This document shows positions 18,658 to 46,881 of a stretch of 64,000 bases of DNA, piece after piece. The stretch lies in the NCBI GenBank assembly GCA_903851365.1, contig CAINOB010000010.1, positions 1-64,000 on the forward strand. Reading direction: 5' to 3'. Positions within the stretch are counted from its first letter, which is position 1. Each line of letters starts with the position of its first letter. The notes beneath the pieces were generated by a model. That model saw only the letters and a list, made by a program, of their open reading frames with translations, was not told where the DNA came from and did no database searches. The stretch is from an uncultured Bacteroidota bacterium. GTDB lineage: Bacteria > Bacteroidota > Bacteroidia > Bacteroidales > UBA12481. The position numbers and the translations under genes are program-made.

Positions 18658-18767
18658 ATATTTTAACCCTGTATTTTCATCCGTTTATCAAAGTAAATCA
18701 GCTATTTACAAGCAATTCAAAAAAAGTTAATTAAATTTGATTTATTGACCTCCCAAAATAGGCAGCT

Positions 18768-20345
18768 TTGAAAAATACTTCAATAAAACCGGCTGTTAAA
18801 CTTTCTGATGCCGAAATCCAAAAGCTGCTTTATGATCTCGAGACTCATAAAGCGGAGGTTGATTTACAGAACAAGTCTCTTATCGAGGCAAAGGAATTGG
18901 CAGATATCGCAACCACAAAATTCAAGGAACTCTATGATTTTGCCCCTACGGGATATTTTACACTAACAAAAAAAGGAGAAATAATAGATGTAAATATCTG
19001 TGGAGCTGAAATACTGGGCCAGGAAAGGAATTCATTAACAAAAAAAAGATTTGGAATATTCATTCCTGAAAATGTCCGGCCCATTTTCAATCAATTTCTC
19101 AGCTGTATTTTCGAGGGAAACTTGAAAGAAACCTGCGAACTGAAACTCCAGAGCGAAAACGGTCAAGACAAATACATTCGACTGGATGGCCATTTTAAGG
19201 AGGGTGACGAATATTGTATGGTGTCGGCAATTGACTTTACCCATCAGAAAAATATCAGAGACGCTTTAAGAATAAGTGAAGAACATTTCAGGGAATTAAC
19301 CGAAAGTATTACGGACGTTTTTTTCGAATTGGATCATGATTTAAAATACACTTATTGGAACAGAGCTTCAGAAAAATTCACGGGAATTCGGGCCGAGAAG
19401 GCTTTAGGTAAAACACTGTGGGATCTATTTACAGATACTCCGGACATCAAAAAAGCCGAAGCCATTTACCGAAAGGTCCTTGAAACCAAGGAACCTGAGG
19501 TATTTGAAAGTTTCTATAGAAATGAAGCCGGAACAACCGTTTTTGAAATCAGCGTTTATCCAACTATTCATGGCATTACCGTTTTCACCAAGGATATCAC
19601 CAGTAGAAAACGTTATGATGAAAAGCTTAAGCAAACCAGTGCGGAATTAAGAAAAACCAATATGGAGAAGGATAAATTCTTTTCCATTCTGGCACATGAC
19701 CTGCGCGGCCCATTCAATACTTTTCTGGGTTTTACCGAAATAATGGCGGAGGATCTTCCAACATTATCCAATGATGAAATTCAGCACATGTCGGCGTCGA
19801 TGAGTAAAACGGCAAAGAATCTTTACCTTCTGCTCGAGAACATTTTGCAATGGTCGAGAAACCAGCTGGGGATGACAACTTATGAACCGCAATCATTAAT
19901 GCTGATGCCCTATTTACAGGAACGAATCCAACCTATATTATTATTGGCAGATAAAAAACAGATCATGATCGAATACGACATCCCGGATGATCTACAGGTT
20001 TATGCGGATGCCAATATGATTATATCGACAATCAACAACTTGGTTACCAATGCAATAAAATTCACTCCCAGAGGTGGTAGAATAATTATAAATGGGATTA
20101 AGGAACCTGATTCTGTCAGAATTTCCATTCTTGACAATGGAATTGGCATGAATCGTGAACAGGTTGAAAAGTTGTTCCATCTGCAGGACCAACCCAACCG
20201 TAAAGGGACCGAAGGAGAGCCCAGCACCGGTCTGGGTTTGCTAATCTGCAAGGATTTTGTCGAAAAACACGGGGGACGGATCTGGGTCGAAAGCGAAGAA
20301 GGAGCAGGCTCAACTTTCCATTTCACGCTGCCTCATCGTACCTGA
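18768..20345 (+). CDS. PAS-PAS sensor histidine kinase
   Basis: 525 residues, soluble. PAS 1 (about 50-165, LYDFAPTGYFTLTKKG), PAS 2 (about 170-285, ELTESITDVFFELDHDLKYTYWN), phosphoacceptor SILAHDLRGPF (His310), followed by LLENILQWS and the ATPase domain ending in FHFTLPHRT. The start is a TTG: an in-frame TAG lies 6 bases upstream and there is no ATG before the conserved region. Its last 13 bases overlap the end of the convergent alpha-mannosidase gene. First of six kinases here with this C-terminal core. No response regulator nearby. Confidence 0.93.
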   Translation: MKNTSIKPAVKLSDAEIQKLLYDLETHKAEVDLQNKSLIEAKELADIATTKFKELYDFAPTGYFTLTKKGEIIDVNICGAEILGQERNSLTKKRFGIFIPENVRPIFNQFLSCIFEGNLKETCELKLQSENGQDKYIRLDGHFKEGDEYCMVSAIDFTHQKNIRDALRISEEHFRELTESITDVFFELDHDLKYTYWNRASEKFTGIRAEKALGKTLWDLFTDTPDIKKAEAIYRKVLETKEPEVFESFYRNEAGTTVFEISVYPTIHGITVFTKDITSRKRYDEKLKQTSAELRKTNMEKDKFFSILAHDLRGPFNTFLGFTEIMAEDLPTLSNDEIQHMSASMSKTAKNLYLLLENILQWSRNQLGMTTYEPQSLMLMPYLQERIQPILLLADKKQIMIEYDIPDDLQVYADANMIISTINNLVTNAIKFTPRGGRIIINGIKEPDSVRISILDNGIGMNREQVEKLFHLQDQPNRKGTEGEPSTGLGLLICKDFVEKHGGRIWVESEEGAGSTFHFTLPHRT

Positions 20346-23236: not shown

Positions 23237-23315
23237 TCTGAACAGATCATGGATTACGAGCAAAAAGATGAAGATAGATAATAATCAGTAAGTTTGATCT
23301 AAATAGATATCTGCC

Positions 23316-24479
23316 ATGAAAACACATTTCGCCTCTCCGGAAAGAGCGGATCAGCCCGCAATACTGAAGCAGAATGAAGCCATCCAGACTTCTGAAATTC
23401 TGTCCAAAACCCTGGATAATCTCACCAATGTGGTGGCCATATTAAATGCGAATCGTCAGGCAGTTTTCATTAATAAAGCACTTTTAGAATCATTCGGATT
23501 CGATTCAACCGGATTCCTTTTGGGTCAGCGACCCGGAGAAATCATGAATTGTATCCATGCAAATGAAATGGAGGCCGGCTGCGGCACCAGTCAGGGCTGC
23601 CGATATTGCGGAGCTGGCCAAAGCATTGTTGAAAGCCAGCAAACATTGAAAACGGTAACCAGGGAATGCAGAATAACTGCCACGATAAACGATGAACCCA
23701 TCAGTTTCGACCTGAGCACAACCTCCAGTCCGATGGAAATCCAGGGTGAAAAATTCACACTTTTCGTTGCGAGCGATATTAGTGATGAGAAGCGCCGACA
23801 CGCCATGGAACGAATTTTCTTTCACGATGTGATCAATAAAGCAGGAAGCCTGGACGGATTGTTGCAAATACTTGAAGACTCGAATGATATAAAAGAAATT
23901 AAGGAAGTTTTGAAGTTACTGCAATCCGTTTCAACCGATCTGGTGGAAGAAATCTTAACACAGCGAGATCTTGTCCGTGCCGAAAAAGGTGAAATAAGCG
24001 TAAATGCTGGTTTGGTAGATCCAATCCATTTAATTTATGATATTGCTGCCCAGATGAGGGCACACGTTGTGACTAAAGGGCATGAGATTGAAGTTATGAT
24101 TGCCTGTGATGCAAAGCCGGTTTTAACAGACAGGGTTTTATTAAACCGGATATTGACCAATATGATTAAAAATGCGATTGAGGCGACGATAAATGGTGGA
24201 AAGGTTAAGGTCATTCTGTTGGAAAATGAAAACTACCTTAGCTTTTCAGTTCATAATGACAAGCTTATGCCACTGGAAGTCAGGAATCAGGTTTTTCAGC
24301 GCTCCTTCTCAACAAAAGGGCTGGATCGCGGGCTTGGCACCTACAGCATGAAACTTCTTGGTGAGAAATATTTAAGGGGCCGGGTATATTTCACTTCTGA
24401 AAAATCGACCGGGACTCATTTTTTCATCGATCTTCCAAAACATATAAAGGTTCAGGACTTTGCCGGTAGCGTAAAATAA
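23316..24479 (+). CDS. Sensor histidine kinase with a cysteine-rich PAS domain
   Basis: 387 residues, soluble. The PAS domain (about 28-150) contains a cluster of Cys and His: MNCIHANE, then GCGTSQGCRYCG, then a later Cys in RECRI. This looks like a metal, iron-sulfur or redox site. The phosphoacceptor is FFHDVINKAGSLDG (His170), a Spo0B/HWE-like box rather than the AHDLR type. The ATPase domain has NMIKNAIEA and a short G-region (GLDRGLGTYSMKLL). The last 28 bases overlap the end of the convergent kinase gene. No partner receiver is seen. Confidence 0.92.
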   Translation: MKTHFASPERADQPAILKQNEAIQTSEILSKTLDNLTNVVAILNANRQAVFINKALLESFGFDSTGFLLGQRPGEIMNCIHANEMEAGCGTSQGCRYCGAGQSIVESQQTLKTVTRECRITATINDEPISFDLSTTSSPMEIQGEKFTLFVASDISDEKRRHAMERIFFHDVINKAGSLDGLLQILEDSNDIKEIKEVLKLLQSVSTDLVEEILTQRDLVRAEKGEISVNAGLVDPIHLIYDIAAQMRAHVVTKGHEIEVMIACDAKPVLTDRVLLNRILTNMIKNAIEATINGGKVKVILLENENYLSFSVHNDKLMPLEVRNQVFQRSFSTKGLDRGLGTYSMKLLGEKYLRGRVYFTSEKSTGTHFFIDLPKHIKVQDFAGSVK

Positions 24480-26011
24480 AAAGCACTTCCTTTTCCCTCT
24501 TCGCTTTCTGCCCAGATTTTCCCGTTGTGTTTTTCGACATAATCCTTGCAAAGCAGTAATCCCAGGCCCGTACTCAGCTCGCCTTCTGTTCCCAACCGAC
24601 TGGTTGACTTATGAATGCTGAAAATATTATCGAGAATTGCCGTATTCATGCCGATGCCGGTATCCTTAACGGATATTTGAGTGGCACCTTCGGGTCCGGC
24701 ACCTGCCTGGATCGATATTTTACCCCCTCGGGCGGTAAACTTAACGGCATTGAAAAGCAGATTGCGCAGGAGGCTTTCAAACATTCTGGAATCAGCTTTA
24801 ATCATAATATCAGAAGGAATATTGGCACTGATGCCGATGCTCTTTTTATCGGCTGAAACGCGCACTAATGATAGGCTGGCCGCAATTTTCTCGGCCAAAT
24901 TCAGCTTTTGTGGATTAAAACTGATCAGGTTACGCTGCATCTGCGACCATTCAAGGAGGTTTTCAAGGAGGTTAAAGAGATTACCGGCCGATGTTCGCAG
25001 GCTGACAGCAATCTTCTTAATCTCATCGAGCCCCAGTGTTGGCAGGTCCTCTACCATTATTTCGGTGAACCCAAGAAACGACTGAAAAGGGCTGCGCAGG
25101 TCGTGAGCTATGATAGAAAAGAACTTGTCCTTTTCATCGTTCAGTTTGATAAGCTCCGCATTTTTCTGCTCTATTTCACGTTCGGAATTTTTTCGTTCGG
25201 TGATGTCCCTGTTAATGCCAATGATGCCAGCTACCTGTCCATTACTGTTCATTACCGGGACTTTTGTTGTCAGGTTCCAACGAACATCAGGTGAAGTTTT
25301 ATTTCCGGTGATTTCTTCGTGGTTAATTAATGGGATACCGGAATTCATGATTAATTGCTCATCCTTGAAATATTGTTCCGCGAGGTGATGGGGGAAAAAG
25401 TCAAAATCAGTTTTTCCAATGATTTCCTCTGTGGTTTCTGCTCCACAATTTGCAGCAACCGGACTATTACATAAAATAAACCGGCTCTCCCTGTCTTTTA
25501 TATAGATCTGGTCCGGCATATTTTCAATGATGGCGTTCAGCATCCTTTCCTTCGTTGCCAGGTTATTCTCCGCCCGGTAACGTTCTGTAATATCCAGGAA
25601 TGACCATACCCGGGCATTCGGCAAGCCATCAAGATACATCGGCTTCGAATTGCGCTCAAATATTCGCCCGTCGCGGAGGAAAATCAAATCTTTACTTTGA
25701 GCCAAAGGGTTTTCATACAACTCCATCACTTTTTCATAAAATCCATCAGGGTCGGCAAGCTGATCGAAAATAAATTTCAGCAGGGTTTTGTCATCAGATG
25801 TGTTTAAAATGTTGGATGGGATTTTCCAGATCTCACCGAATTTTCCATTCACCTTAATGACTTTACCTGTTTGATCAACAACAAGGATTCCGTTTTGAGA
25901 TGCATCGATGATGGCTTCGAGGAGGGCATTGGTTTTAACCAATTCGTTTTCTAAAATCCTGCCGGTATCGTGAAATTCATGTTTCTTTTCCGGAGGTATG
26001 GATTGTGGCAT
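24452..26011 (-). CDS. PAS-PAS sensor histidine kinase
   Basis: 519 residues, soluble. PAS 1 about 28-150 (DASQNGILVVDQTGKVIKVN), PAS 2 about 155-275 (IENMPDQIYIKDRESRFILC), then the shared core KDKFFSIIAHDLRSPF (His303), LLENLLEWSQMQR, ATPase domain with LLFNAVKFT and GLGLLLCKDYVEKHNGK. It follows the next upstream kinase (27534-26023) by 11 bases, and the two cores are so alike that a tandem duplication is likely. Confidence 0.94.
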   Translation of the reverse strand: MPQSIPPEKKHEFHDTGRILENELVKTNALLEAIIDASQNGILVVDQTGKVIKVNGKFGEIWKIPSNILNTSDDKTLLKFIFDQLADPDGFYEKVMELYENPLAQSKDLIFLRDGRIFERNSKPMYLDGLPNARVWSFLDITERYRAENNLATKERMLNAIIENMPDQIYIKDRESRFILCNSPVAANCGAETTEEIIGKTDFDFFPHHLAEQYFKDEQLIMNSGIPLINHEEITGNKTSPDVRWNLTTKVPVMNSNGQVAGIIGINRDITERKNSEREIEQKNAELIKLNDEKDKFFSIIAHDLRSPFQSFLGFTEIMVEDLPTLGLDEIKKIAVSLRTSAGNLFNLLENLLEWSQMQRNLISFNPQKLNLAEKIAASLSLVRVSADKKSIGISANIPSDIMIKADSRMFESLLRNLLFNAVKFTARGGKISIQAGAGPEGATQISVKDTGIGMNTAILDNIFSIHKSTSRLGTEGELSTGLGLLLCKDYVEKHNGKIWAESEEGKGSAFYFTLPAKS

Positions 26012-26022
26012 TCAATAAAAAA

Positions 26023-27534
26023 TTAACCAGCCTGCAAGGTAAAATAAAAAGTGCTTCCTTGTCCCTCTTTGCTCTCTGCCCATATTTTACCACCGTGTTT
26101 TTCTACATAATCTTTACAAAGCAAAAGTCCGAGGCCGGTACTCGGTTCGCCTTCCGTGCCCGAACGGCTGGGCAGCATATCGAGGTCGAATAATCTGGCA
26201 AGGATCTCTGCATTCATTCCGATTCCCGTATCCTGAACTGATATTTCAATGAATGAACCAGGCAGTTTCCTTGCTGTAATTGAAACATGACCATCTTTCG
26301 GGGTAAACTTCACAGCGTTAAAAACCAGGTTACGTATCAGGCTGTCGAACATTCCGGTATCCGCAAATACGATGACGTCACCCGGAATATCGGTGCTAAT
26401 GCCGATTCTCTTTTTTAATGCAGCATCGTGGACCGGAGCCATGCTGGCCGAAAGTTCCTTTTTGAGATGTAGCGCCTGAGGGTGGAACCTGATCAAACCG
26501 CGCTGCATCCTCGACCATTCAAGCAGATTGTCGAGCAGTTTGTACAGCCGGTTTGCTGATGTATTAATGCTGTGCACAATTTTTTCAATATCCTCCTTTG
26601 ACAGGTTCTCTAATTGGTCGGCCAGCAAACTGATGAATCCCATGAATGTTTGGAACGGACTGCGCAAATCATGGGCAATAATCGAAATAAATTTGTCTTT
26701 TTGGGCATTTAGCAGGTTCAGCTCCTGATTTTTTCCTTTAATCTCCTCGTCGAATCGTTTTCTGTCGGTAATATCGTGAACCACACCGGTTAAGCGCCTT
26801 GTCCCCTTATTTATACTAGCATTGAGTTCTAATATTTTATCCTGATAGTTAAACTCAAATCCCTGAACATTAGTTCCTTTCATCAGATCTCCCAGTAGGA
26901 CAAGTGCATTTTCAACCGTAGGTTCAGGCAGCATTTCCCGGGCCAGGTTAAGTATGTTTTTACCAACCAGATCTTCTTCAGGAATACCAAGGATTTTTTC
27001 CAGCGAATCATTGATCCCGATTACCTGGCCTGAAAGTGTGGTAAGGGCAATTCCTTCAATAATTGTTTGGAAAATGTCGGTAAAAATCAACTCGCTTTCC
27101 CACAATCCGGTTTTCTTGTTCCTCTGCTCAGTAATATCTCTTGAGATAATTTGGAAGCAGGAAGCTGAGCCGCCTTCATCCATCAATGGCCCCCCATTGG
27201 AGGAGTGCCACCTCCAGGATCCATTGGAATGCCTCATCCTGTATTCAATACCGGATTTCTGTGTCCCCGATTGGATGATCAATTCCAAAAATTCCCTGCA
27301 ACTGTCGACGTCCTCCGGGTGAATGAACTCAATCAGGTTTATACCAATTACCTGGTCAGCCGGATACCCCAGGAGTATAGTCCAGCTTGGAGATACGAAC
27401 GTGAGTATGCCAGGCGGGCAAAACGTAAAGATGATATCGCAGGAATTCTCAATCAGCCGACGATATAATTTATCCTCGTCTGCATGTTTGTGAATCTCAG
27501 CTTGTGATTGAATTATCTTGCCTGATTTTGCCAT
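26023..27534 (-). CDS. PAS-PAS sensor histidine kinase
   Basis: 503 residues, soluble. PAS 1 about 20-140 of the PAS-3 type (WTILLGYPADQVIG, HPEDVDSCREF), PAS 2 about 145-265 (TIIEGIALTTLSGQVIGIN), core KDKFISIIAHDLRSPF (His288), LLDNLLEWSRMQRG, ATPase with LVFNAVKFTPKDGH and GLGLLLCKDYVEKHGGK. First gene of a two-kinase operon. The 97-base region between it and the divergent esterase holds one copy of the GTCAAATAG element. Confidence 0.94.
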   Translation of the reverse strand: MAKSGKIIQSQAEIHKHADEDKLYRRLIENSCDIIFTFCPPGILTFVSPSWTILLGYPADQVIGINLIEFIHPEDVDSCREFLELIIQSGTQKSGIEYRMRHSNGSWRWHSSNGGPLMDEGGSASCFQIISRDITEQRNKKTGLWESELIFTDIFQTIIEGIALTTLSGQVIGINDSLEKILGIPEEDLVGKNILNLAREMLPEPTVENALVLLGDLMKGTNVQGFEFNYQDKILELNASINKGTRRLTGVVHDITDRKRFDEEIKGKNQELNLLNAQKDKFISIIAHDLRSPFQTFMGFISLLADQLENLSKEDIEKIVHSINTSANRLYKLLDNLLEWSRMQRGLIRFHPQALHLKKELSASMAPVHDAALKKRIGISTDIPGDVIVFADTGMFDSLIRNLVFNAVKFTPKDGHVSITARKLPGSFIEISVQDTGIGMNAEILARLFDLDMLPSRSGTEGEPSTGLGLLLCKDYVEKHGGKIWAESKEGQGSTFYFTLQAG

Positions 27535-27612
27535 GAAAAGACCAACTTACATTAACTTAACGAGCGCATTTTTATAAAATTACTAAAACGTGTGATCAAT
27601 TGAATTTCATTG

Positions 27613-27621
27613 GTCAAATAG
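27613..27621 (+). promoter_or_regulatory. GTCAAATAG element between kinase and esterase genes
   Basis: Intergenic copy of a short element that recurs ahead of several kinase genes in this window (also at 48451 and 56499). Here it lies 10 bases before the esterase ATG and 78 bases before the divergent kinase start. Role unknown. Confidence 0.3.
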
Positions 27622-27631
27622 CTTTAAAATC

Positions 27632-28351
27632 ATGAAAACAAGAAATCTGTTGTTAATGCTGGGTTGCTTTTGCCTGATATCCACAGGACAGAATTTTGCT
27701 CAGCCATCAAGATTCAGCTCAAATAAGTTTATTAATGAAAAGGGTGATACCTTAAATTACCGGTTGCTGAGCCCCGATTACAATACCTCGCGAAAATACC
27801 CGCTGGTTATCTTCCTTCATGGCTCGGGCGAAAGGGGAAAAGACAATGACGCCCAGTTAAAATGGGGGGTGATGAACTTTGCTACCGACCAGATGATGGT
27901 TTTGCATCCCGCCATTGTAGTTGCTCCGCAATGCCCGGAAAAGCAGGACTGGACGAAATCCATGGACATATTATATCAACTCATTCAAAAACTTTTGAAA
28001 GATTCGCCGGTTGATGTCTCCCGCATTTATATCACCGGAATATCCATGGGTGGTTTTGGAACTTTTGAAGCTATCTCAAGGTATCCCGATTTGTTTGCCG
28101 CCGCCGTACCCGTTTGCGGTGGAGGCGACCTTAAAAAGGCACCCCTCTTTGCACATATGCCCATGTGGATTTTTGCCGGAGCAGAGGATCCGGCAGTGAA
28201 TCCACAATTATCATTCAGCATGGTCGATGCCATAACCAAGGCAGGCGGACACCCGGGATTTACTCAATATCCCGAGGTCGGGCATTTTTCATGGCTGGCC
28301 GCATACAGCGATCCCCATATGATGGAATGGCTGTTCCGTCAACACAAATAA
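27632..28351 (+). CDS. Secreted alpha/beta-hydrolase (carboxylesterase/phospholipase-like)
   Basis: 239 residues with a signal peptide (to about residue 23, STGQNFAQ). Alpha/beta-hydrolase fold: oxyanion region FLHGSGERGKDND, nucleophile elbow GISMGGFG (Ser near 138), acid in FAGAEDPAVN, and catalytic His in EVGHFSW. It resembles the single-domain esterases related to feruloyl/acetyl-xylan esterases and PHB-depolymerase-like enzymes; substrate unproven. Convergent with the multihaem lipoprotein gene with 3 bases between them. Confidence 0.88.
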   Translation: MKTRNLLLMLGCFCLISTGQNFAQPSRFSSNKFINEKGDTLNYRLLSPDYNTSRKYPLVIFLHGSGERGKDNDAQLKWGVMNFATDQMMVLHPAIVVAPQCPEKQDWTKSMDILYQLIQKLLKDSPVDVSRIYITGISMGGFGTFEAISRYPDLFAAAVPVCGGGDLKKAPLFAHMPMWIFAGAEDPAVNPQLSFSMVDAITKAGGHPGFTQYPEVGHFSWLAAYSDPHMMEWLFRQHK

Positions 28352-28354
28352 TAT

Positions 28355-29236
28355 CTATCTGATCATGCCGGGATAGGCCTTCCAAAATGATTTTGCGGTA
28401 GCTGAGGGCATGTGTACCAGGTGACATTTCATACAACTTTCATTGCCAATGGCTCCCAGCAATTGTCCGATGGCCTTTCCATCAGGCGGCGTTGCTGCAA
28501 CGGCCTTGCCGAGATCGCTGACCATTCCCTGAACATTCTGACTGACAAAGTAAGACCTTGGTGTATCATGACAACCGGAACAATTGGCAGACAGTGAGAT
28601 AAAGCGATCGCTGAAACTTTTAAAATTGGTCCGTACATTTTCGATCTGCCCCTGTCCTAAATCGTTTCCGATCGCTGTAAATGCATTGGCTATCCGCATC
28701 ATGGACTCATGCCAGCTGATATTCTGATTTGTTATCGGATCCGTAAGTGAAAGCGCTTCAAAATCGGGCCAGCTGTATTTTTGCTGAGCCCTGATCTGGT
28801 TAATTACATGACAGGAAGCACATAATCGGCCAATTCTTCCCATTGCGCTGCCAATCATGGCAGGATTACCACTGCCCATTGCCAGGCCGAGAGAATCCAC
28901 GGGCCCGACCGGAAATTTTTCCTTCCATTCAGGTACCATAACCGACATTTTCAAATACTGAGCCCTGAATGCATCAAAATTAGCTTTTGCACCGGGAAGA
29001 TCTTTTTCCTGAAGGTCGATACCAATGCCTTCAAAAGGATTGGAAAGCGAAAACATTTCCATCAGGTAAACTGGGCCCTGCGCTTTTGGTGGAAAATAAT
29101 TATCCAGCGACGAAGGCAGCGGTGCAGTCATCTCCTTGAGAAGGGCGTTTTCTTTTTCGAGCTTGTCAACTCGGGGTTTCAGGTCCTGGCCGCAGGCGGC
29201 CAATCCGACCAACAGGATTAATGCAACCTTTTTCAT
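28355..29236 (-). CDS. Lipoprotein with three c-type haem motifs
   Basis: 293 residues from the ATG giving MKKVALILLVGLAACG, a lipoprotein signal with Cys15. A short coiled coil (KLEKENALLKEM) follows, then a mostly helical body with three CxxCH motifs: CASCH (near 155), CSGCH (near 225) and CMKCH (near 275). It should therefore be a periplasmic or outer-membrane-anchored multihaem electron carrier or sensor. Spacing of the haem sites does not match a named cytochrome family that I recognise. It is divergent from the haem-binding-family gene at 29427. Confidence 0.82.
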   Translation of the reverse strand: MKKVALILLVGLAACGQDLKPRVDKLEKENALLKEMTAPLPSSLDNYFPPKAQGPVYLMEMFSLSNPFEGIGIDLQEKDLPGAKANFDAFRAQYLKMSVMVPEWKEKFPVGPVDSLGLAMGSGNPAMIGSAMGRIGRLCASCHVINQIRAQQKYSWPDFEALSLTDPITNQNISWHESMMRIANAFTAIGNDLGQGQIENVRTNFKSFSDRFISLSANCSGCHDTPRSYFVSQNVQGMVSDLGKAVAATPPDGKAIGQLLGAIGNESCMKCHLVHMPSATAKSFWKAYPGMIR

Positions 29237-29426
29237 GTTTTTGCTATTTAATTTAGGATAAAGAAATGTATGTGCATATCGACATATTGCCATCATATCA
29301 TAAATAACTAATTATCAAATAATTACTTAATTGAGCTGAAATATTTTGTTTATAATGCATACTTATACAACCTGTTACGACAGCACAAATAATTTCACTT
29401 ATTTTGCATCGTGCAATTAATATGCT

Positions 29427-29849
29427 ATGAATCAAACCAGAGCTATACAGACGATTACCCTCGAACTGGCAAATTATCTTGCTGATAAAGCCATCGAAAA
29501 GGCAACTGAAATGAATTTCAGCATTTGCATCTGGATAGTAGATCCATCAGGGAATCCGGTGGTTTTTAAAAGGCAGGACAATTCACCGTTAATCTCCATG
29601 GATGCAGCCCGGAAAAAAGCGATGACTGCCATAGGTTTTGGTATGCCAACCGGTCAGGCCTGGCACGATTTTATTAAGGATGACCCCATTCTCAGCGGAG
29701 GGATACCGCAAATGAAAGATTTTATTCTGCTTGGCGGCGGAGCGCCAGTCCGGGTTAATGGCGAAATGGTTGGAGCCATTGGTATCAGCGGCGGGCACTA
29801 TAAACAGGATGAGGAGTGTTTGAAATTCGCACTTTCTTTCGTTAAATGA
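29427..29849 (+). CDS. GlcG/HbpS-family haem-binding-like protein
   Basis: 140 residues, no signal peptide, so cytosolic. The whole protein is one GlcG/HbpS/PduO-C fold: WIVDPSGNPVVFKRQD, DAARKKAMTAIGFGMPTG, GGGAPVRVNGEMVGAIGISGG. HbpS of Streptomyces binds haem and controls the sensor kinase SenS, but most relatives are uncharacterised. The stop overlaps the start of the hybrid kinase by 4 bases (ATGA), so the two are translationally coupled, which suggests it is a ligand-sensing partner of that kinase. Confidence 0.88.
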   Translation: MNQTRAIQTITLELANYLADKAIEKATEMNFSICIWIVDPSGNPVVFKRQDNSPLISMDAARKKAMTAIGFGMPTGQAWHDFIKDDPILSGGIPQMKDFILLGGGAPVRVNGEMVGAIGISGGHYKQDEECLKFALSFVK

Positions 29850-32071
29850 ACAGTCAGGCCCCCGATATGATCACTAAGCTGGAAAGGTTTGCCTCCAGGC
29901 TCTCCTTCGTAAGGTCGCTGGATGATCTGATACGGACGGTCGAGGAAATTCTTGAAGAAGTTGTTCAGGTTGAATACAATGGTCTCTATCTTTTCGATCC
30001 CACAACCGGAAGGTTAAAATTATATTTTGCCAAAGGGTTCACCGAGGCTGAGCGCATCGAAGCCGAAAGAACCTCCATGGAAAGACATCCGGGATTTGTT
30101 TACCGTACCGGTGAAGCTATTCATGTCCCGGATATGAGGCTGAACAGTAAATCCCAAACCCGCGACAGCCGAAGAAGCTTTCATATCCTGAGCCGTTTGT
30201 TTCTGCCGGTTAAAAGCTACGACCAGACTGTCGGGACATTTGGGCTTGCCAGTACTCAGGCAAACCGGTTCACTGAAGAAGACATCTCGATCTTGTCCTT
30301 TGTATGCAACCTTGCCGGCGTTATCTATGCAAATATTATCTATGCGAAAAAACAGGATGAATCGAGCCGCATCATCAGCCATTACCAGGATCAGCTGAAA
30401 TTTCTGGCCGATACTGCCATGGACCTGATCGGCATTCAGGAAGAGGAGGATCTGTTTCGTTATATTAAGGAGAAGCTTAAAGTATTGCTCCCAGGTAATC
30501 TTGCCATCATCAATCAGGTTAAAAATAATGAGGCATTTCTGAAAGATTTCATTGGGATGCCGGTATCCCGATTTTTAAAACACACCCATAAAATCGGTTG
30601 GGATCCATTCGAGAAACCCTATCCGATTGAACCGCGGTTTCTGGAAATTTTCATGTTGGGGAAAGTGTACCAATTCCCCGGTGGCTTTGCCGATTTTGCC
30701 GGGAACTATATCCCGGAGGAGGGCGGTATCCTGATAAACAAGCTTTTAAAAATTAAGGACATCCTGACAATCGGGATCGCAAAAAGCAATAATCTTTACG
30801 GGCTTATACATATAATTGTGCGGAACAACGATCCAATGCCAGAAATACCGGTACTTGAATCCTTTGTTAATCAATGTGCTGTGGTGATTCAGCAGATACG
30901 CCTTAAGCAGGATCTTGTTCAGGCACGAATGGTCGCGGAAGAGGCGAGCCTTTCCAAGGCAAAATTCCTTTCCATGATGAGTCATGAGATCCGCACCCCG
31001 CTCAATGCGGTCATCGGATTAACTCATATTCTCCTGATGGACGATCCCCGGCCGGATCAGATGGAAAATCTGAAATCAATAAAATTTTCAGCTGACAACT
31101 TATTAATCATCATCAATGATATCCTTGATTACAATAAGATAGAATCCGGCAAGATCAATTTTGAGACGATCGACTTTAAGATTCAGGAGGTATCAAACGG
31201 TATCATACGGACCTTCAAGTCTCTTGCTGATGAAAAAAATCTTGCTCTGGAATTGGAAACCGACCCTTCGCTTCCGATAATGATAACAGGCGATAAAACG
31301 CGGCTTGCTCAAATTCTGATCAATCTTCTCTCGAATGCCATCAAGTTTACTTCCAAAGGATCAGTAACCCTGCGCATGGTTAAATTAGGCATCAGGCAGA
31401 ACCAGGTTCGCATTCGCTTTGAGGTTAGCGATACGGGAATAGGAATTGAACCGGAAGCCATCGACAGGATTTTCGAAGATTTCGTGCAGGCCCGGCAGGA
31501 TACTACCAGGATATACGGAGGCACCGGACTGGGGCTTTCCATCGTTAAGAGGCTGGTTGAAATGCAGGGGGGTAGGATCAGTGTAAAAAGTGTGATTGGC
31601 CGGGGGACTACTTTTACTTTTGAATTGCCGTTCTATTTCTCGGAAACAGATCCAAAATCTTTTAAAGAATCCGATTTTCGGTTTGAGCGTCTGACCGGTC
31701 TCAAAGTCCTTATTGCTGAGGACAATAAAATCAATCAACTGGTTGCCAAACAGTTTCTTACCAGGTGGGGTGTTGAATTTACTGTCGTGGAAAATGGGGT
31801 GCTAGCTGTGGAAGAAGTTATAAAAGAACACTTTAACCTTATCCTGATGGATCTTGAGATGCCTGTGCTGGATGGTTATGAAGCAACCAAACTAATCAGG
31901 AATCTGGCAGATCCCGTAAAATCAAAAATACCTATCATCGCGCTGTCAGCTTCAGCCATGCACGAAATCCGGGATAAAGCAATGAGATGCGGAATGAATT
32001 CTTTTATAACCAAGCCTTTCGAACCCTGCGAACTCTATCTTAATATTAAGGACCTGGCTGTTAAACATTAG
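29846..32071 (+). CDS. GAF-GAF hybrid histidine kinase with receiver domain
   Basis: 741 residues, soluble. GAF 1 about 10-165, GAF 2 about 185-350, a coiled linker, phosphoacceptor SMMSHEIRTPLNA (His380), ATPase with LLSNAIKFTSKG and GGTGLGLSIVKRLVE, then a C-terminal receiver about 612-735 with LIAEDNKINQ and phosphoacceptor Asp669 (LILMDLEMPVLDG), and the conserved lysine in ITKPF. No output domain, so phosphate must pass to another protein. Coupled to the GlcG-like gene immediately upstream. Confidence 0.95.
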   Translation: MNSQAPDMITKLERFASRLSFVRSLDDLIRTVEEILEEVVQVEYNGLYLFDPTTGRLKLYFAKGFTEAERIEAERTSMERHPGFVYRTGEAIHVPDMRLNSKSQTRDSRRSFHILSRLFLPVKSYDQTVGTFGLASTQANRFTEEDISILSFVCNLAGVIYANIIYAKKQDESSRIISHYQDQLKFLADTAMDLIGIQEEEDLFRYIKEKLKVLLPGNLAIINQVKNNEAFLKDFIGMPVSRFLKHTHKIGWDPFEKPYPIEPRFLEIFMLGKVYQFPGGFADFAGNYIPEEGGILINKLLKIKDILTIGIAKSNNLYGLIHIIVRNNDPMPEIPVLESFVNQCAVVIQQIRLKQDLVQARMVAEEASLSKAKFLSMMSHEIRTPLNAVIGLTHILLMDDPRPDQMENLKSIKFSADNLLIIINDILDYNKIESGKINFETIDFKIQEVSNGIIRTFKSLADEKNLALELETDPSLPIMITGDKTRLAQILINLLSNAIKFTSKGSVTLRMVKLGIRQNQVRIRFEVSDTGIGIEPEAIDRIFEDFVQARQDTTRIYGGTGLGLSIVKRLVEMQGGRISVKSVIGRGTTFTFELPFYFSETDPKSFKESDFRFERLTGLKVLIAEDNKINQLVAKQFLTRWGVEFTVVENGVLAVEEVIKEHFNLILMDLEMPVLDGYEATKLIRNLADPVKSKIPIIALSASAMHEIRDKAMRCGMNSFITKPFEPCELYLNIKDLAVKH

Positions 32072-32132: not shown

Positions 32133-32579
32133 ATGGTCGATGATTCGAAAAATCTGATCAGGGAACCTATCGGGCGTATCATGGCAAATATCGGCCGTAT
32201 GTTCATGGCCGACCTTCATCGAAGTCTATCACATCTCGATATAGAACGTTCCTACTATCCTTTGCTCCTAATTGAAGCCGGCAACGGAAGCCTGACGCAG
32301 CAGGAACTGGCCGGCAAATTATCATGCGACAAGGTGCAGGTGGTTCGGATAATCGACTATTTATCGTCAAATGGATACGTGGAGCGTGGACAAAATCCTA
32401 ATGATCGAAGAAAAACCAGTCTGCAGATCACTTTAAAAGCAAAAAAATTCCTGCCTGATATCAAAAGGGCAATGAAGGAGACCACTGAACTGGCTTTAAG
32501 CAATGTACCTGAGCATAGCATTGAAGAATTGTATGCTCTGCTAAAAACGATTGAAAAGAATTTTGGAACAAATAAATAG
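32133..32579 (+). CDS. MarR-family transcriptional regulator
   Basis: 148 residues. Winged helix-turn-helix of the MarR type at about 35-105: LLIEAGNGSLTQQELAGKL, DKVQVVRIIDYLSSNGYVERG, and the wing NPNDRRKTSLQIT. Helical dimerisation ends flank it. The next gene starts directly after its stop codon, so it heads the RND efflux operon and probably represses it from the palindrome at 32071, responding to a small toxic compound. Confidence 0.93.
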   Translation: MVDDSKNLIREPIGRIMANIGRMFMADLHRSLSHLDIERSYYPLLLIEAGNGSLTQQELAGKLSCDKVQVVRIIDYLSSNGYVERGQNPNDRRKTSLQITLKAKKFLPDIKRAMKETTELALSNVPEHSIEELYALLKTIEKNFGTNK

Positions 32580-33671
32580 ATGAAAAAAATGAATCGGATA
32601 TTTAAATGGCTGATCGTACCGGTATTACTGATTGCAATAACATTTATCGGTGTGAGTTTAATGAAATCCAAAGATAAGGTAGCCGACAGCCCGAAAAAGG
32701 GAGGAATGCCTCCAAAAGAAAAGCCATTAACCAAAGTGGATATATTCGTGGTGACTCCCACCAAACTTGCCGACAATAGAGAGGTATCTGGCTCACTGCT
32801 GGCTTATGAGGAAGTTGACCTTAAAAATGAAGTCGCCGGAAGGGTGGTCGAGATTAACCTGCCGGAAGGGCAATCTGTAAAAAAAGGTACCCTGCTGGTG
32901 AAACTTTTTGATGATGACTTGCAGGCTGGGTTAAGGAAGCTCCAGATTCAGCTGGCCATCCAGGAGAAAATATATGAAAGGCAGGCTGAATTGGTTAAGG
33001 TAAACGGTATCAGTCAGAATGATTATGAGCAAACCGGGTTGCAGCTAAATTCCCTGCGTGCGGATATCGAGATACAAAAAGTTCTTATTCGTAAAACGAT
33101 GGTTCTTGCTCCATTCGACGGTGTCATCGGCTTGAGGAACATCAGCATCGGAGCCCAGGTAACTCCATCCACCTTGCTGGCCACGATACGTAGTGAAGAC
33201 AGGCTGAAGCTTGATTTCAGCGTTCCGGAAAAATATGGCTCAGAAATAAAACCCGGAATGAAAATCAATTTCACCTTATCGAATAATTCAAAACAATACG
33301 AAGCAACGGTAATGGGCACTGAAGAGGGTATCGAAGCGGCAACGCGAAACCTCAAGGTTAGAGCAGTGGTTGAAAACAAATCGGAGCATCTTCTGCCGGG
33401 AGCTTTTGCGGATGTATTCCTGAAACTGAGGGAGAATAACGATGCCCTGATGATTCCGACGCAGGCCATCATACCTGCAGAACAGAGTAAGAGCGTTATC
33501 ATGGTTCGAAAAGGCAAAGCCCATTTCGTGACGGTAAAAACCGGAACACGCGAAGCATCAACTATTGAAATTACCGAAGGACTTCAGCCCGGCGATACCA
33601 TTGTTACCACCGGGATCCTGTTTTTGAAGGAAGGCGCCAGGTTACTCTATTCCACTGTTAAAGCCCAATAA
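32580..33671 (+). CDS. RND efflux periplasmic adaptor (membrane fusion protein)
   Basis: 363 residues. N-terminal membrane anchor about 8-28, then the adaptor order: beta-barrel/lipoyl half (SGSLLAYEEVDLKNEVAGRVVEINL), helical hairpin about 125-160, lipoyl half (VLAPFDGVIGLRNISIGAQV), beta-barrel, and membrane-proximal domain (EITEGLQPGDTIVTTGILFLKEGA). It bridges the inner-membrane pump and the outer-membrane channel. The MarR stop and this ATG are adjacent; the pump gene follows after 2 bases. Confidence 0.95.
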   Translation: MKKMNRIFKWLIVPVLLIAITFIGVSLMKSKDKVADSPKKGGMPPKEKPLTKVDIFVVTPTKLADNREVSGSLLAYEEVDLKNEVAGRVVEINLPEGQSVKKGTLLVKLFDDDLQAGLRKLQIQLAIQEKIYERQAELVKVNGISQNDYEQTGLQLNSLRADIEIQKVLIRKTMVLAPFDGVIGLRNISIGAQVTPSTLLATIRSEDRLKLDFSVPEKYGSEIKPGMKINFTLSNNSKQYEATVMGTEEGIEAATRNLKVRAVVENKSEHLLPGAFADVFLKLRENNDALMIPTQAIIPAEQSKSVIMVRKGKAHFVTVKTGTREASTIEITEGLQPGDTIVTTGILFLKEGARLLYSTVKAQ

Positions 33672-33673
33672 TT

Positions 33674-36600
33674 ATGCTAATCTCCGACATTGCGCTAAAG
33701 CGTCCGGTTGGGTCAGTCGTTTTAAGCCTCATTATCATTTTACTGGGCGCAGTGGGATACACTTTTTTGGGTGTCCGGCTTTATCCGGCCATTGATCCGC
33801 CGGTAATCACTGTTCAGGCATCCTATACTGGTGCCAACGCTGAAATCATTGAATCACAGATCACTGAACCCCTCGAAAAATCCATTAACGGGATTGAAGG
33901 GGTAAAATCAATCTCATCACAATCAGCTATCGGCAGCAGCTCGATCACGGTTGAATTTAACCTGGGAGCGGATCTTGAAAAGGCGGCCAACGATGTCCGT
34001 GATAAGGTTTCGCAAGCGATACGTTCGCTTCCGCAGGATATGGACTCACCTCCAACGGTAACCAAAGCGGATGCAAACAGCGATCCGATTATCATGCTGG
34101 TTGCGCAGAGCAGCCTGATGGATGCCCTGGAACTCAGCGATTACGCCGAGAATGTTTTAATGGAAAAACTGCAGACCATTCCGGGAGTCAGCTCCGTCAT
34201 GATTTACGGACAGCAGAAGCCCGCTATGCGCCTGTGGCTCGATCCCAAAAAGATGGCAGCTTACAGCCTGACGGCATCAGATGTGAACAATGCGCTGGCC
34301 AAGGAAAATGTGGAGATGCCCGGAGGAAAGATCCGAGGAAGCAATACTGAACTTACAGTAAAAACATTTGGCCGTCTGGAAACCGAAGCGGAATTCAATG
34401 ATCTGATCATCAAGCAATCCGATAATCAAGTTGTTCGATTAAGAGATATCGGGGAAGCGATACTGGGGCCTCAAAATGAAGAAACCGGTGCCAGGATCAA
34501 TGGAATTACCGGGGTTGTGCTGGCCTTGATTCCACTGCCTGGCGCAAACGATATCCAGATTGCTGATGAATTTTACAAACGATTGGATCAGATCAGGGAA
34601 ACCGCACCCAAAGGGATGGAATTGAATATCGGGCGAGACAAATCAATTTTCGTCCGGCAATCGGTCAGCGATGTTGTTGAAACACTGATTATTGCAATCA
34701 GTCTGGTCATCCTCATCATCTTCCTGTTTTTCCGCAATTGGGTAATTGCCATCCGACCACTCATTGATATTCCTGTGTCACTGATCGGTACCTTTTTTAT
34801 CATGTACATCTTCGGGTTCTCCGTTAACATACTTACCCTGATGGGCATCGTTCTCGCAACAGGTTTGGTGGTGGACGACGGGATCGTTGTCACCGAAAAT
34901 ATCTTTAAGCGAATCGAGCGGGGAATGGATAAATGGCAGGCTGCCTTTGAAGGAACCAGGGAGATATTTTTCGCGGTGGTCTCCACTTCACTGACACTGG
35001 CGATCGTATTTATTCCGGTCATCTTTTTACAAGGGTTTACAGGCAGGCTATTCCGGGAATTCGGTATTGTCGTTGCCAGTGCGGTATTGATTTCGGCATT
35101 TGTATCTCTTACCCTGACTCCTGTTTTAAATGTTAAGCTCGGGGGATATGCCTCACAGCATTCCAAGTTCTACACCTCCACCGAGCCCTTTTTTCAGGGC
35201 ATGGAAAGCGGGTACCGGCGGATACTAAGCTTTTTTATAAAACATAAATGGATATCCTTTTCGATTTTAGGAATCTGCGTGATCATGATTGTCACTTTTT
35301 CCAAAAATCTTAAGTCGGAACTGGCTCCCATGGAGGACCACAGTTATATCCGAACTTCCATCACCGCTCCCGAAGGAACTGAATATACGACCACCCAAAA
35401 TCTTATCGATCAGCTGGCAATTATAAATACAGATTCCCTGCCGGAAGCAAAATATGTTTTAGCCCGTTATGGCGGCGGCGGCGGCGGATCGAGCTCCAGC
35501 TCAAATACCGGTTTTGTAATATCGTTCCTGTCGGAGCCTACCCAGAGAAAGGTTACCCAACAGCAGATGTACGATAAGCTTTCGAAAATCTACCGGGGAA
35601 TTCCAAATGCAAGAATTATCGCAAGTCAGGAGCCAACCATCACCACCTCTTCATCGAGAGGCTTACCGGTTCAGTTTGTTCTGCAAAATCTCGATTTTGA
35701 AAAGATTAGGGAGGTATTACCGAAATTTCTTGATGAGGCACAAAACAGTCCGGTGTTCAGTAATATCGATGTTGATCTGAAATTCAATAAACCAGAACTG
35801 AATATTAAAGTCGACCGCCTTAAGGCAACCAGTCTGGGAGTGAATGAAAGAGATATCTCGGATGCCCTGAACTACGCATTCAGTGCTGGGCGCACCGGCT
35901 ATTTCCTCCGAAACAACAAGCAATATTATGTCATTGCCCAGGTAGCGCGCGAAGACCGGAACAGGCCTGCCGACATATCCTCACTTTATGTCCGCACGAA
36001 AGCAGGCGACATGATCCAGCTCGACAATCTCGTGAAAATCGAAGAAAACAGCGCCCCCCCTACTCTATATCACTGGAACCGTTATAAATCAGCAACGGTA
36101 TCGGCTAACCTGGCCAATGGAAAAACCCTGGGTGAAGGTATTGATGAGATGAATAGAATAGCTTCCAAATTACTGGATAAATCCTTTAATACCGCACTGG
36201 CCGGGCCATCTAGGGACTTTGCGGAGAGCAGCTCAAATATTTCATTTGCCCTGCTATTAGCGCTGATGCTGATCTACCTGATTCTTGCCGCACAGTTTGA
36301 AAGCTTCCGCGATCCATTTATCATTATGCTGACTGTGCCAATGGCTGTTGCCGGGGCCATGCTTTCTCTGACCGTTTTTCATCAGACGCTAAATGTCTTC
36401 TCTGAAATCGGTATGATATTGCTGATTGGAATTGTCACCAAGAACGGAATTCTGATTGTGGAGTTTGCCAATCAGAAACAAAAAGCCGGCATGACCAAAT
36501 CAGTCGCGGCTTTTGAATCTGCTGCTGCCCGTTTCCGCCCGATATTGATGACCTCGCTGGCAACCATTTGCGGAGCCCTGCCGATAGCCTTTGCGCTGGG

Positions 36601-36736
36601 CGCCGGTGCACAAAGCCGCATCCCTCTGGGAATTGTGGTTGTTGGCGGCTTGCTATTTTCACTCATACTTACCTTATTCGTGATCCCCGTAACCTATATT
36701 GTTATGTCGGGGAAAAAAGATCAGGTTAAGTCTTAA
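33674..36736 (+). CDS. RND-family multidrug efflux pump (AcrB/HAE1 type)
   Basis: 1020 residues, inner membrane, proton-driven. Two repeats of one plus five helices with large periplasmic porter loops. Proton-relay residues are intact: the Asp pair in GLVVDDGIVVTEN and the Lys in GIVTKNGILIVEF. FILR..FRPILMTSLATICGALP-type helix ends are present. An unusual Gly6-Ser5 tract sits in the second half of the porter region (33-base DNA run at 35471-35503). Third gene of the MarR operon. HAE1-type pumps export drugs, dyes, detergents or lipids; the substrate is unknown. Confidence 0.96.
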   Translation: MLISDIALKRPVGSVVLSLIIILLGAVGYTFLGVRLYPAIDPPVITVQASYTGANAEIIESQITEPLEKSINGIEGVKSISSQSAIGSSSITVEFNLGADLEKAANDVRDKVSQAIRSLPQDMDSPPTVTKADANSDPIIMLVAQSSLMDALELSDYAENVLMEKLQTIPGVSSVMIYGQQKPAMRLWLDPKKMAAYSLTASDVNNALAKENVEMPGGKIRGSNTELTVKTFGRLETEAEFNDLIIKQSDNQVVRLRDIGEAILGPQNEETGARINGITGVVLALIPLPGANDIQIADEFYKRLDQIRETAPKGMELNIGRDKSIFVRQSVSDVVETLIIAISLVILIIFLFFRNWVIAIRPLIDIPVSLIGTFFIMYIFGFSVNILTLMGIVLATGLVVDDGIVVTENIFKRIERGMDKWQAAFEGTREIFFAVVSTSLTLAIVFIPVIFLQGFTGRLFREFGIVVASAVLISAFVSLTLTPVLNVKLGGYASQHSKFYTSTEPFFQGMESGYRRILSFFIKHKWISFSILGICVIMIVTFSKNLKSELAPMEDHSYIRTSITAPEGTEYTTTQNLIDQLAIINTDSLPEAKYVLARYGGGGGGSSSSSNTGFVISFLSEPTQRKVTQQQMYDKLSKIYRGIPNARIIASQEPTITTSSSRGLPVQFVLQNLDFEKIREVLPKFLDEAQNSPVFSNIDVDLKFNKPELNIKVDRLKATSLGVNERDISDALNYAFSAGRTGYFLRNNKQYYVIAQVAREDRNRPADISSLYVRTKAGDMIQLDNLVKIEENSAPPTLYHWNRYKSATVSANLANGKTLGEGIDEMNRIASKLLDKSFNTALAGPSRDFAESSSNISFALLLALMLIYLILAAQFESFRDPFIIMLTVPMAVAGAMLSLTVFHQTLNVFSEIGMILLIGIVTKNGILIVEFANQKQKAGMTKSVAAFESAAARFRPILMTSLATICGALPIAFALGAGAQSRIPLGIVVVGGLLFSLILTLFVIPVTYIVMSGKKDQVKS
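35471..35503 (+). repeat. Gly6-Ser5 coding tract in the RND pump
   Basis: Five GGC codons plus GGA, then five serine codons in mixed usage. In frame inside the periplasmic part of the pump. Simple-sequence DNA of this type can slip in length. Confidence 0.9.
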
Positions 36737-36757
36737 AACACCGTTGCACAAAAACAC

Positions 36758-38056
36758 ATGGTTATGCGAATCCTAGTAATCCTTATCCTATTGGCAGTAT
36801 CCACGTTGGCTAATGGACAGGAAATCCTTACGGTTGATGATGCCGTGAGCATCGCGTTAAAAAACAATTTTGGTATCCTGGTCGCACGGAATGACGCCGA
36901 TATTGCCAAGGCAAATAATACCCCCGGAAATGCAGGAATGTTACCGGTAGTTCAGGCTACAGGTTCAGGAAGCTATGCCCTTAATAATGTTGACCAGCAT
37001 TTGTCGACTGGTACAATAAATAAATACCCCTCCCTCTCGGCTGCGTCTGCCAGTGCCGGCACTCAGCTTTCCTGGAAATTATTTGATGGCGGAAAAATGT
37101 TTGTCACCAAAAACAAGCTGAACGAAATAGAATCCCTCGGGGAGATCCAGTTTAAGGACAATGTTTTGCAGACCTTATACACTGTTATATCTGCCTATTA
37201 CGATGTGGTGCGGCAGAAGCAGCAGTTAAATTCCATTGATGAGGTCATGAATTATAACCAGGAACAGGTTAAGATTGCCCAGGCAGGTTTTACTGCCGGG
37301 TCCCTGTTAAAGACAAATCTCCTGCAGGCCAAAATAGACCTGAATGTTACTATGGAAAATGCAGTAAATCAGCAGTTTATTATTGAAGAAGCGAAACGGC
37401 ACTTATTGGAACTGCTTGGCCAGGGTATCGATAAGAATTTTGACGTTACAGATACCATCCCACTGAATTTTTCGCCGGATAAAAACGAATTAATAAAGAA
37501 GGTGGATTCGGCAAACACAACCCTGCAATCATTTCATAAGCAAATGGATATTGCCAGGCTTGTACTGAAAGAAAACAGCAAGCTATTTTTTCCGGTGTTG
37601 AACTTCACCAGCGGATATTATTTCTCCCAGTCAAACAACTCGAACGGTTCGATTTTGAATAACAGGTCCTTTGGTCCTCAGCTCGGGGGAAGTCTGACGA
37701 TACCGATTTACAGTGCCGGAGAGAATCAGAGGAAGATAAACACGGCAAAAATCCAGCTCAAGACCGCCGAATATGATTTTCAGAATGTTGAATTGCAGGT
37801 AAAGACTGATTTGCAGAATGCCATAAGCGGATTTGAAAATCAGCAGAAGCTATTGAAGATCGAAGTTGAAAATAAGGAACTGACCCGGGAGAATCTTCAA
37901 ATCAGCCTTCAGCGGCTCCGGCTTGGGCAAACAACCTCGCTTGAGGTACATATGGCTCAGGAGAATTACATGCTTTCCTGCACCCGGCTGATCAATTTTG
38001 AGTACAATCTCAAGATTGCTGAAACTAAGCTGAAGCAGCTTATAGCCACTTTATAA
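36758..38056 (+). CDS. TolC-family outer-membrane efflux protein
   Basis: 432 residues with signal peptide (MRILVILILLAVSTLANGQ). The two TolC repeats are visible as long helices and strands: VDDAVSIALKNNFGILVARNDADIAKANNTPGNAGMLP-type start (about 26-65) and QISLQRLRLGQTTSLEVHMAQENY near the C-terminus. It forms the outer-membrane exit duct of the tripartite pump. It starts 21 bases after the pump gene and ends the MarR-adaptor-pump-TolC operon. An ATG two codons later is an equal start candidate. Confidence 0.95.
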   Translation: MVMRILVILILLAVSTLANGQEILTVDDAVSIALKNNFGILVARNDADIAKANNTPGNAGMLPVVQATGSGSYALNNVDQHLSTGTINKYPSLSAASASAGTQLSWKLFDGGKMFVTKNKLNEIESLGEIQFKDNVLQTLYTVISAYYDVVRQKQQLNSIDEVMNYNQEQVKIAQAGFTAGSLLKTNLLQAKIDLNVTMENAVNQQFIIEEAKRHLLELLGQGIDKNFDVTDTIPLNFSPDKNELIKKVDSANTTLQSFHKQMDIARLVLKENSKLFFPVLNFTSGYYFSQSNNSNGSILNNRSFGPQLGGSLTIPIYSAGENQRKINTAKIQLKTAEYDFQNVELQVKTDLQNAISGFENQQKLLKIEVENKELTRENLQISLQRLRLGQTTSLEVHMAQENYMLSCTRLINFEYNLKIAETKLKQLIATL

Positions 38057-46197: not shown

Positions 46198-46881
46198 ATG
46201 ACAAACTTCGGCACGATATTGATAATTGATGATGAAGTACAGATCAGGCGGTTGCTTGAGATCACCATAACTGCCAGCGGGTATAAAATTTCCGAAGCCT
46301 CCACCGGAAAGGAAGGACTGGCCCTCGCAGCAACTATTCAACCTATACTCATCATTCTCGACCTGGGCCTGCCTGATGCAGATGGTATTGAAATTTTGAA
46401 ACGACTGAGGGAATGGTATCAGAAGCCTGTCATCATACTTTCGGTCCGGAATTCTGAAGAAGATATTATCAGGGCTCTAGATAACGGAGCAAACGATTAC
46501 CTCACCAAGCCTTTCCGCACCGGTGAGCTTTTGGCTAGAATCCGGGTAGCCATACGCCAAAGTATGAATAATACTGACGAGCCAGTCCTGACCTTTGGCA
46601 ACCTTACCATCGATTTATCGAGTCATACCGTTCACAAGGAAAATGAATTGATTAAACTAACCTCTACTGAATTTTCTCTTTTGGCATTGCTTGCACGAAA
46701 CGAAGGCCGGGTTTTAACCCATCAATATATTCTGAAGGAGATCTGGGGATTCGGGTACATTGAGCAAACACAATACCTGCGTGTGTTTATGGCACAGTTG
46801 CGTAAAAAGATCGAAAATGATCCCGCTAAGCCCATGTTATTGAATACAGAATCGGGGATCGGCTACCGGTTCGGCAGTTGA
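46198..46881 (+). CDS. kdpE: Response regulator KdpE
   Basis: 227 residues. Receiver domain 1 to about 120 with the acidic pocket IIDDEVQ, phosphoacceptor Asp55 (IILDLGLPDADG) and KPF; OmpR/PhoB-type winged helix about 130-225 (LTSTEFSLLALLARNEGRVLTHQYILKEIWG). The start abuts the kdpD stop. It should activate kdpF, plausibly from the CCTGACA direct repeat at 38081. It ends 2 bases before the convergent kinase gene. Confidence 0.97.
   Translation: MTNFGTILIIDDEVQIRRLLEITITASGYKISEASTGKEGLALAATIQPILIILDLGLPDADGIEILKRLREWYQKPVIILSVRNSEEDIIRALDNGANDYLTKPFRTGELLARIRVAIRQSMNNTDEPVLTFGNLTIDLSSHTVHKENELIKLTSTEFSLLALLARNEGRVLTHQYILKEIWGFGYIEQTQYLRVFMAQLRKKIENDPAKPMLLNTESGIGYRFGS

Follow-up and report, generated by a model that had tools for sequence, protein, structure and literature searches.

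A recurring gene pair of an HbpS-like DUF336 protein and a GAF-headed signalling protein as a candidate two-protein sensor

Introduction

In a 64,000-nucleotide stretch of contig CAINOB010000010.1 from an uncultured Bacteroidota bacterium (hereafter, the window), the gene of an HbpS-like protein of the DUF336 family (PF03928) overlaps that of a soluble hybrid histidine kinase. The conserved unit probably consists of just these two genes, one encoding the HbpS-like protein and the other a signalling protein headed by one GAF subfamily. The recurrence of this pair amid a changing kinase remainder and changing surroundings suggests a hitherto undescribed two-protein sensor. Searches of the open-access literature brought up no apparent description of an HbpS-like/GAF-kinase pair; PMC12889525 was discarded as a DUF336 paper because, in its available text, the string matches only via DUF3365. 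A preliminary description of the window, made from the letters alone, had joined the pair to a third gene, for a divergently transcribed multihaem lipoprotein, in a single haem-themed module. The coupling of HbpS-like protein and kinase is supported, recurring in loci assigned to four named phyla and a deltaproteobacterium, while the inclusion of the lipoprotein is not.

DUF336/HbpS proteins are widespread, and a recurrent partner domain outside Actinomycetota provides a direct handle on their function. If the reading offered here is true, it also offers a case of a GAF domain that takes its input from another, soluble protein. The pair extends the HbpS–SenS idea to other phyla, contrary to the published linkage to kinases in actinobacteria only: as stated in the accessible portion of a 2016 paper, among hbpS-like genes only the actinobacterial ones cluster with senS/senR (PMC4991794).

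Distribution of the pair

When 84,980 species genomes were searched using only the HbpS-like protein as query, 50 loci were obtained. Removal of L054, which has no open reading frame (ORF) matching the query, and inclusion of the window locus together with four longer ones found in genomes of the order gave the 54 loci examined, with L005–L008 replaced by their longer versions L059–L062. A locus was counted as linked when the start of the downstream protein matched the N-terminal 350 residues of the window kinase with an E of 3e-32 or lower. By this measure, a GAF protein is encoded by the next downstream gene, on the same strand, in 23 of the 54 HbpS-family loci (window pair included), at distances of −68 to 198 bases, 19 of which fall between −11 and 15. 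The 31 unlinked loci gave no match to the same 350 residues in all the DNA available around each. By record title, the linked loci belong to Bacteroidota, Ignavibacteriota, Myxococcota, Planctomycetota and an uncultured deltaproteobacterium.

Linkage closely follows the phylogeny of the HbpS-like proteins. In a tree from which L061 and L062 were omitted, 25 rows, comprising the 23 linked loci together with L012 and L026, form a group that is split from 27 unlinked rows with branch support of 100/99, and the linkage label needs only two changes on it, compared with an average of 17.2 after shuffling. The 27 unlinked rows come from Actinomycetota, Pseudomonadota and a few others; no GAF neighbour was seen among them, although L036 is too short to judge (151 bases of downstream DNA; 439 in L038). 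Across 395 genomes of the phylum, some HbpS-family match occurs in 35, but an E below 1e-60 is reached in only two, the window's own genome and G602 (next value, 9e-23), and in both the GAF protein lies directly downstream of the group HbpS. Seen from the other side, a GAF profile matches all 21 genomes reached from the loci and adjoins HbpS in 19, mostly as the sole match; many of these genomes contributed rows to the profile, such that its informative part is the scarcity of other copies. The group HbpS is single-copy in each of the 21, with one distant further copy in G701, and the HbpS-like protein is likewise the single match in the window's own genome. On visual comparison, the upstream genes recur only among near-copy loci; several are kinases or receivers.

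The two partners also diverge in a correlated manner. Pairwise HbpS and GAF distances, computed with L060 and five near-copies left out and L103 added, correlate with r = 0.50 over 18 pairs, a value reached in 0 of 5000 permutations that do not remove shared species history. In 13 rows, the partial correlation of HbpS with GAF given the kinase core is 0.47, versus 0.06 for HbpS with the core given GAF.

The proteins and their domains

A re-check of the sequence finds the three genes where the preliminary description had placed them (Table 1), with a divergent gap of 190 bases (29237–29426) between the lipoprotein and the HbpS-like gene and with the kinase start at 29846 overlapping the HbpS-like end at 29849 by 4 bases. 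The same overlap occurs in the congener locus L009. PF03928 spans residues 10–136 of the 140-residue HbpS-like protein. Also in agreement with that description, the HbpS-like protein appears cytosolic and the kinase soluble: neither a signal peptide nor a clear membrane helix was seen by eye or in hydropathy (no dedicated predictor was run), and the highest 19-residue hydropathy mean of the kinase (1.95, residue 147) falls within a GAF helix of the structure model.

Table 1. Features of the locus, in coordinates of the window
Feature	Position	Strand	Basis and remarks
Lipoprotein with three CxxCH, weak cytochrome c' match	28355..29236	(-)	Pfam; judged to lie outside the conserved unit
Upstream stretch, 43/55 bases identical in congener, inverted repeat CTGT-TACG-ACAG; candidate promoter/operator of the pair	29372..29426	(+)	Two sequences only
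HbpS-like (PF03928/DUF336) cytosolic protein, 140 residues	29427..29849	(+)	Pfam, E=2.6e-32; in GAF-linked group
HbpS-like residues K64, S121, D128 (= EfgA K57, S114, D121), H124, C131	29616..29819	(+)	Structure-relative alignments, numbering of the papers
Soluble hybrid histidine kinase, 741 residues, 4-base overlap with HbpS-like gene	29846..32071	(+)	Pfam GAF, HisKA, HATPase_c, Response_reg
N-terminal GAF domain, residues 23-160, RHPG subfamily; kinase part common to HbpS-linked partners	29912..30325	(+)	Pfam, alignment, model
Second, probably GAF-like domain, residues about 200-330	30443..30835	(+)	Low-confidence model; tandem GAF structures among matches; sequence search
HisKA dimerisation/phosphoacceptor domain, His380 in MSHE	30956..31150	(+)	Pfam
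HATPase_c catalytic domain	31289..31633	(+)	Pfam
C-terminal receiver domain, Asp669 in LMDLEMP	31706..32044	(+)	Pfam

What the linked partners have in common is approximately their first 165 residues, that is, the GAF domain. Ten of its positions (E69, T76, R80, P82, G83, V85, D96, R117, P121 and G130) are invariant in 19 aligned rows. Behind it, the architecture is freely exchanged: HisKA with or without a receiver, HisKA_2/HWE, HisKA_3, PAS chains and Hpt all occur. In the structure model of the window kinase, residues 5–168 adopt a GAF fold, matched by GAF structures with Z up to 19.9; the predicted local distance difference test score (pLDDT) per 10-residue block is 84–96 over residues 11–170, except for 54 at 101–110. 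Judging from the model, the window kinase probably carries tandem GAFs. The second of these matched only the window kinase and that of the congener in a sequence search of 123 records, and is thus not needed for pairing with HbpS.

Relation to characterised DUF336 proteins

Membership of the HbpS-like protein in the DUF336 family is clear from its Pfam match and from a match to HbpS itself (PDB 3fpv, E = 2.6e-10). By sequence, its closest solved structure is NahX (PDB 9jth, E = 1e-20), with which it has a GG...QDExC stretch in common; we know of no kinase link for NahX. The 2021 paper on EfgA counts, in its available text, three biochemically characterised bacterial DUF336 proteins, namely HbpS, PduO and EfgA (PMC8153426). 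The system nearest to the pair is HbpS–SenS–SenR, in which, according to the accessible text of two papers, the gene of the DUF336 protein stands beside that of a histidine kinase whose autophosphorylation the protein controls (PMC3754957; PMC4991794). Both systems thus link an HbpS-like gene to a histidine kinase gene. They differ in location and in layout, as far as the available descriptions go. HbpS is secreted by means of a twin-arginine translocation (Tat) signal, whereas none was seen here by the same inspection as above, and the alignment with PDB 2a2l begins at residue 1. SenS is a membrane kinase working with a separate response regulator, whereas the kinase here is soluble and carries a fused receiver and a GAF domain. 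EfgA of Methylorubrum is, like the protein studied here, a cytosolic DUF336 protein; it is described as sensing formaldehyde, but is said to modulate translation, and the available text reports no kinase partner (PMC8153426).

The EfgA pocket residues K57, S114 and D121 are all present, as K64, S121 and D128. Within the group they are kept in 25/25, 24/25 and 24/25 members, and among the unlinked relatives in 27/27, 26/27 and 27/27. Because these residues are described as largely conserved in DUF336 homologues (PMC8153426), they indicate a small-ligand pocket but not a particular ligand. More telling of the group are R62, K63, G76, PI 87–88, DF 98–99, LL 101–102, E129 and C131, which form its signature; C131 occurs in 24 of the 25 members versus 5 of the 27 unlinked relatives. 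H124 is found in all 25. Spaced i, i+4 and i+7, H124, D128 and C131 would lie on one face if this stretch is helical, and sensing may involve a thiol-based or metal-dependent step. In the C-terminal domain of PduO, which belongs to the same fold family, haem is reported to be bound by His18 of two subunits (PMC4923194). This position falls on Asn16 here and is a His in only 1 of 25 group members. HbpS Thr113, whose numbering is inferred from the K108/T113 spacing, would align with Phe99, a Phe in 24 of 25. With the PduO haem ligand replaced and the EfgA pocket residues kept, the haem theme of the preliminary description would seem to derive mainly from the family name.

Proposed mechanism and points against it

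The best reading, and to us a fairly likely one, is that a cytosolic DUF336 ligand sensor acts on the N-terminal GAF domain of its partner. The HbpS-like protein would bind a small ligand, or change redox state, in the conserved pocket of K64, S121, H124, D128 and C131, and would then dock on the GAF domain. By analogy with HbpS, docking may switch the kinase; phosphate would then move within it, from His380 to Asp669 of the receiver, before reaching a further partner. Viewed in this manner, the pair would be a soluble, intracellular counterpart of HbpS–SenS(–SenR). The sensor reading draws on the recurrent gene order, the exchange of domains behind the GAF domain, the group-specific HbpS residues and the correlated HbpS/GAF divergence.

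Several observations weigh against this reading. All 20 linked loci from the 84,980-genome scan are metagenome-assembled, some on contigs of 4–8 kb, so that mis-binning may have placed loci under the wrong phylum. The 23 linked loci include near-copies (L015/L016/L023, L019/L020, L022/L025 and L010/L011), and the HbpS-like protein of L060 is very divergent, having lost most of the group signature. The pair is patchy, with HbpS in 2 of the 12 genomes of the family draw. Shared species history is left in the permutation test on the HbpS and GAF distances. At E up to 1e-15, the GAF profile matches five of the 395 phylum genomes, and three of these, G671, G486 and G587, have no HbpS match; G587 keeps 9 of 19 GAF signature positions and the other two 17 and 16, respectively. 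Finally, two group HbpS genes lack the expected neighbour: L012 has no adjacent GAF protein, a tRNA pseudouridine synthase being next, and L026 lies behind a TPR-HisKA kinase in a genome whose GAF match is only weak (1.1e-12).

Exclusivity of the GAF subfamily to HbpS neighbours is ruled out by the three HbpS-less genomes and by additional copies elsewhere. Strong additional copies occur in four genomes and a weak one in a fifth (G705). In a GAF tree, the non-adjacent GAF kinases of G698, G702 and G703 group with the HbpS-adjacent kinases at L010 and L011 (support 100/100); a further non-adjacent one, in G707, was not among the rows of this tree. In G695, the genome of L012, the GAF profile at E up to 1e-10 picks out a single protein, a strong match on another contig (L114:7235-9340), of RHPG type with PAS and a SpoIIE phosphatase; its GAF domain is sister to the HbpS-adjacent one of L013 (support 95/93). 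This arrangement and the extra copies fit with one HbpS-like protein serving several GAF proteins. Conceivably, then, though we propose it only tentatively, one diffusible cytosolic DUF336 protein might be a shared co-receptor for GAF-headed proteins of varied output (hybrid, HisKA_2 and HisKA_3 kinases, SpoIIE phosphatase), acting on its adjacent partner and in trans, and reading a small reactive or redox-active molecule at K64/S121/H124/D128/C131.

The divergent lipoprotein and alternative explanations

The lipoprotein gene starts at 29236, within an ORF that extends to 29296, and its product begins with a lipobox-like sequence (MKKVALILLVGLAACGQ; C15 in LAAC). As the preliminary description had it, three CxxCH motifs are present, at residues 139, 219 and 268, a number reached in 0 of 20000 shuffles of the residues. 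Several CxxCH motifs together with a lipobox mark the protein as a multihaem c-type lipoprotein; it matches Cytochrom_C_2 with 27.6 bits, just over the cut-off of 26.5, and is the sole CxxCH ORF among 46 tiled ORFs of at least 100 residues in the window. No solved relative was found at E up to 1, and a single-sequence structure model (mean pLDDT 45) was not used. A second copy, 58% identical, resides on another contig of the same genome (C128; L004/L063). In this copy the third CxxCH lacks its first Cys, and the neighbours are a histidine-kinase ATPase-domain protein on one side and a thioredoxin/AhpC-TSA protein on the other. In draws of 12 family, 295 order and 395 phylum genomes, which overlap one another, the lipoprotein was found in the own genome only and is thus absent from 11, 294 and 394 genomes, respectively. 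On the congener contig L009 (genome G009), a PAS-kinase fragment is followed by another gene, the HbpS-like gene, the hybrid kinase and HlyD; identities to the window are 84% for the HbpS-like protein, 78% for HlyD and 49% for the PAS-kinase fragment. There, a Peripla_BP_6 protein occupies the interval held in the window by the lipoprotein and a hydrolase. Around 25 related loci of the group, no CxxCH-bearing ORF turned up in the stretch searched, where several contigs end early: less than 5 kb upstream was available for L009, L010, L018, L020, L023, L024, L028 and L059, and downstream flanks are short in some (about 0.8 kb in L011 and L024). Its absence from the other sampled genomes, the congener interval and the related loci argues against the lipoprotein as a member of the conserved unit; from sequence comparison it is best seen as a lineage-specific neighbour.

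A haem or redox sensor in which the HbpS-like protein and the kinase control this lipoprotein is consequently very improbable. To its credit are the divergent layout over 190 bases, the three CxxCH motifs, the lipobox, the family name and the kinase-like neighbour of the C128 paralogue; however, with ten kinase-ATPase proteins in the window, adjoining a kinase is weak evidence for any gene here. The PAS-kinase fragment and HlyD flank the pair in the congener as they do in the window, yet the lipoprotein is replaced. The three-gene haem module was accordingly not sustained: in the comparison of gene order that the preliminary description had proposed, the HbpS-like/kinase pair is kept and the lipoprotein, its linkage not conserved in the sampled relatives, is not.

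A haem sensor could also dispense with the lipoprotein, the HbpS-like protein binding haem or a corrinoid and the kinase reporting haem or iron stress in the manner of HbpS–SenS. HbpS and PduO, of the same Pfam family, are described as binding haem, and the invariant H124 could be a ligand. Asn16 and, if the inferred HbpS numbering holds, Phe99 point the other way, and CxxCH genes, the only haem-related ones looked for, do not recur near the loci, making this version unlikely. Instead of a sensor, the HbpS-like protein might act as an enzyme or scavenger, producing or removing a small molecule that the GAF domain reads, without any contact between the two proteins. Correlated divergence is no proof of contact, and a more distant DUF336 gene does lie within a catabolic cluster (Arcobacter), with others named in the available text of the EfgA paper (PMC8153426). 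Against this, no metabolic neighbour recurs by eye in the linked loci, and the tight pairing with GAF, together with the short gaps, suggests that the two proteins are supplied in matched amounts; we consider the enzyme doubtful and prefer the ligand sensor acting on the GAF domain.

Promoter region and surroundings

Just upstream of the HbpS-like gene, 55 bases are conserved in the congener (Table 1), so that the pair may carry its own promoter. Pattern searches did not identify one. Sigma-70-like matches were rejected as evidence (18 found; shuffle mean 8.8, standard deviation 2.6), as was a Bacteroidetes-type pattern (21 matches versus 27.5 expected, none in the divergent gap). The window holds no Rfam family at gathering score and no tRNA.

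The kinase-ATPase proteins of the window lie in 16984–32071 and 43513–56447, including two adjacent PAS kinases (24452–27534) and KdpD (43513–46197); nine of the ten ORFs match the core of the kinase studied here, and the tenth is 23316–24479. Downstream of the pair, 32133–38056 encodes a MarR regulator followed by HlyD, an AcrB-type pump and outer-membrane efflux genes. In the congener, HlyD directly follows the hybrid kinase without MarR, and on this ground the pair could have the efflux pump as a target. Elsewhere, at L013:7503-7925 (minus strand), a BLUF blue-light domain protein is divergent from the HbpS-like gene, 72 bases apart. On the Arcobacter cloacae plasmid pACLO (L121, 3055–5883), a DUF336 gene stands between those of catechol 2,3-dioxygenase and 2-hydroxymuconic semialdehyde dehydrogenase, a context that agrees with an aldehyde-related role for some of the unlinked DUF336 relatives.

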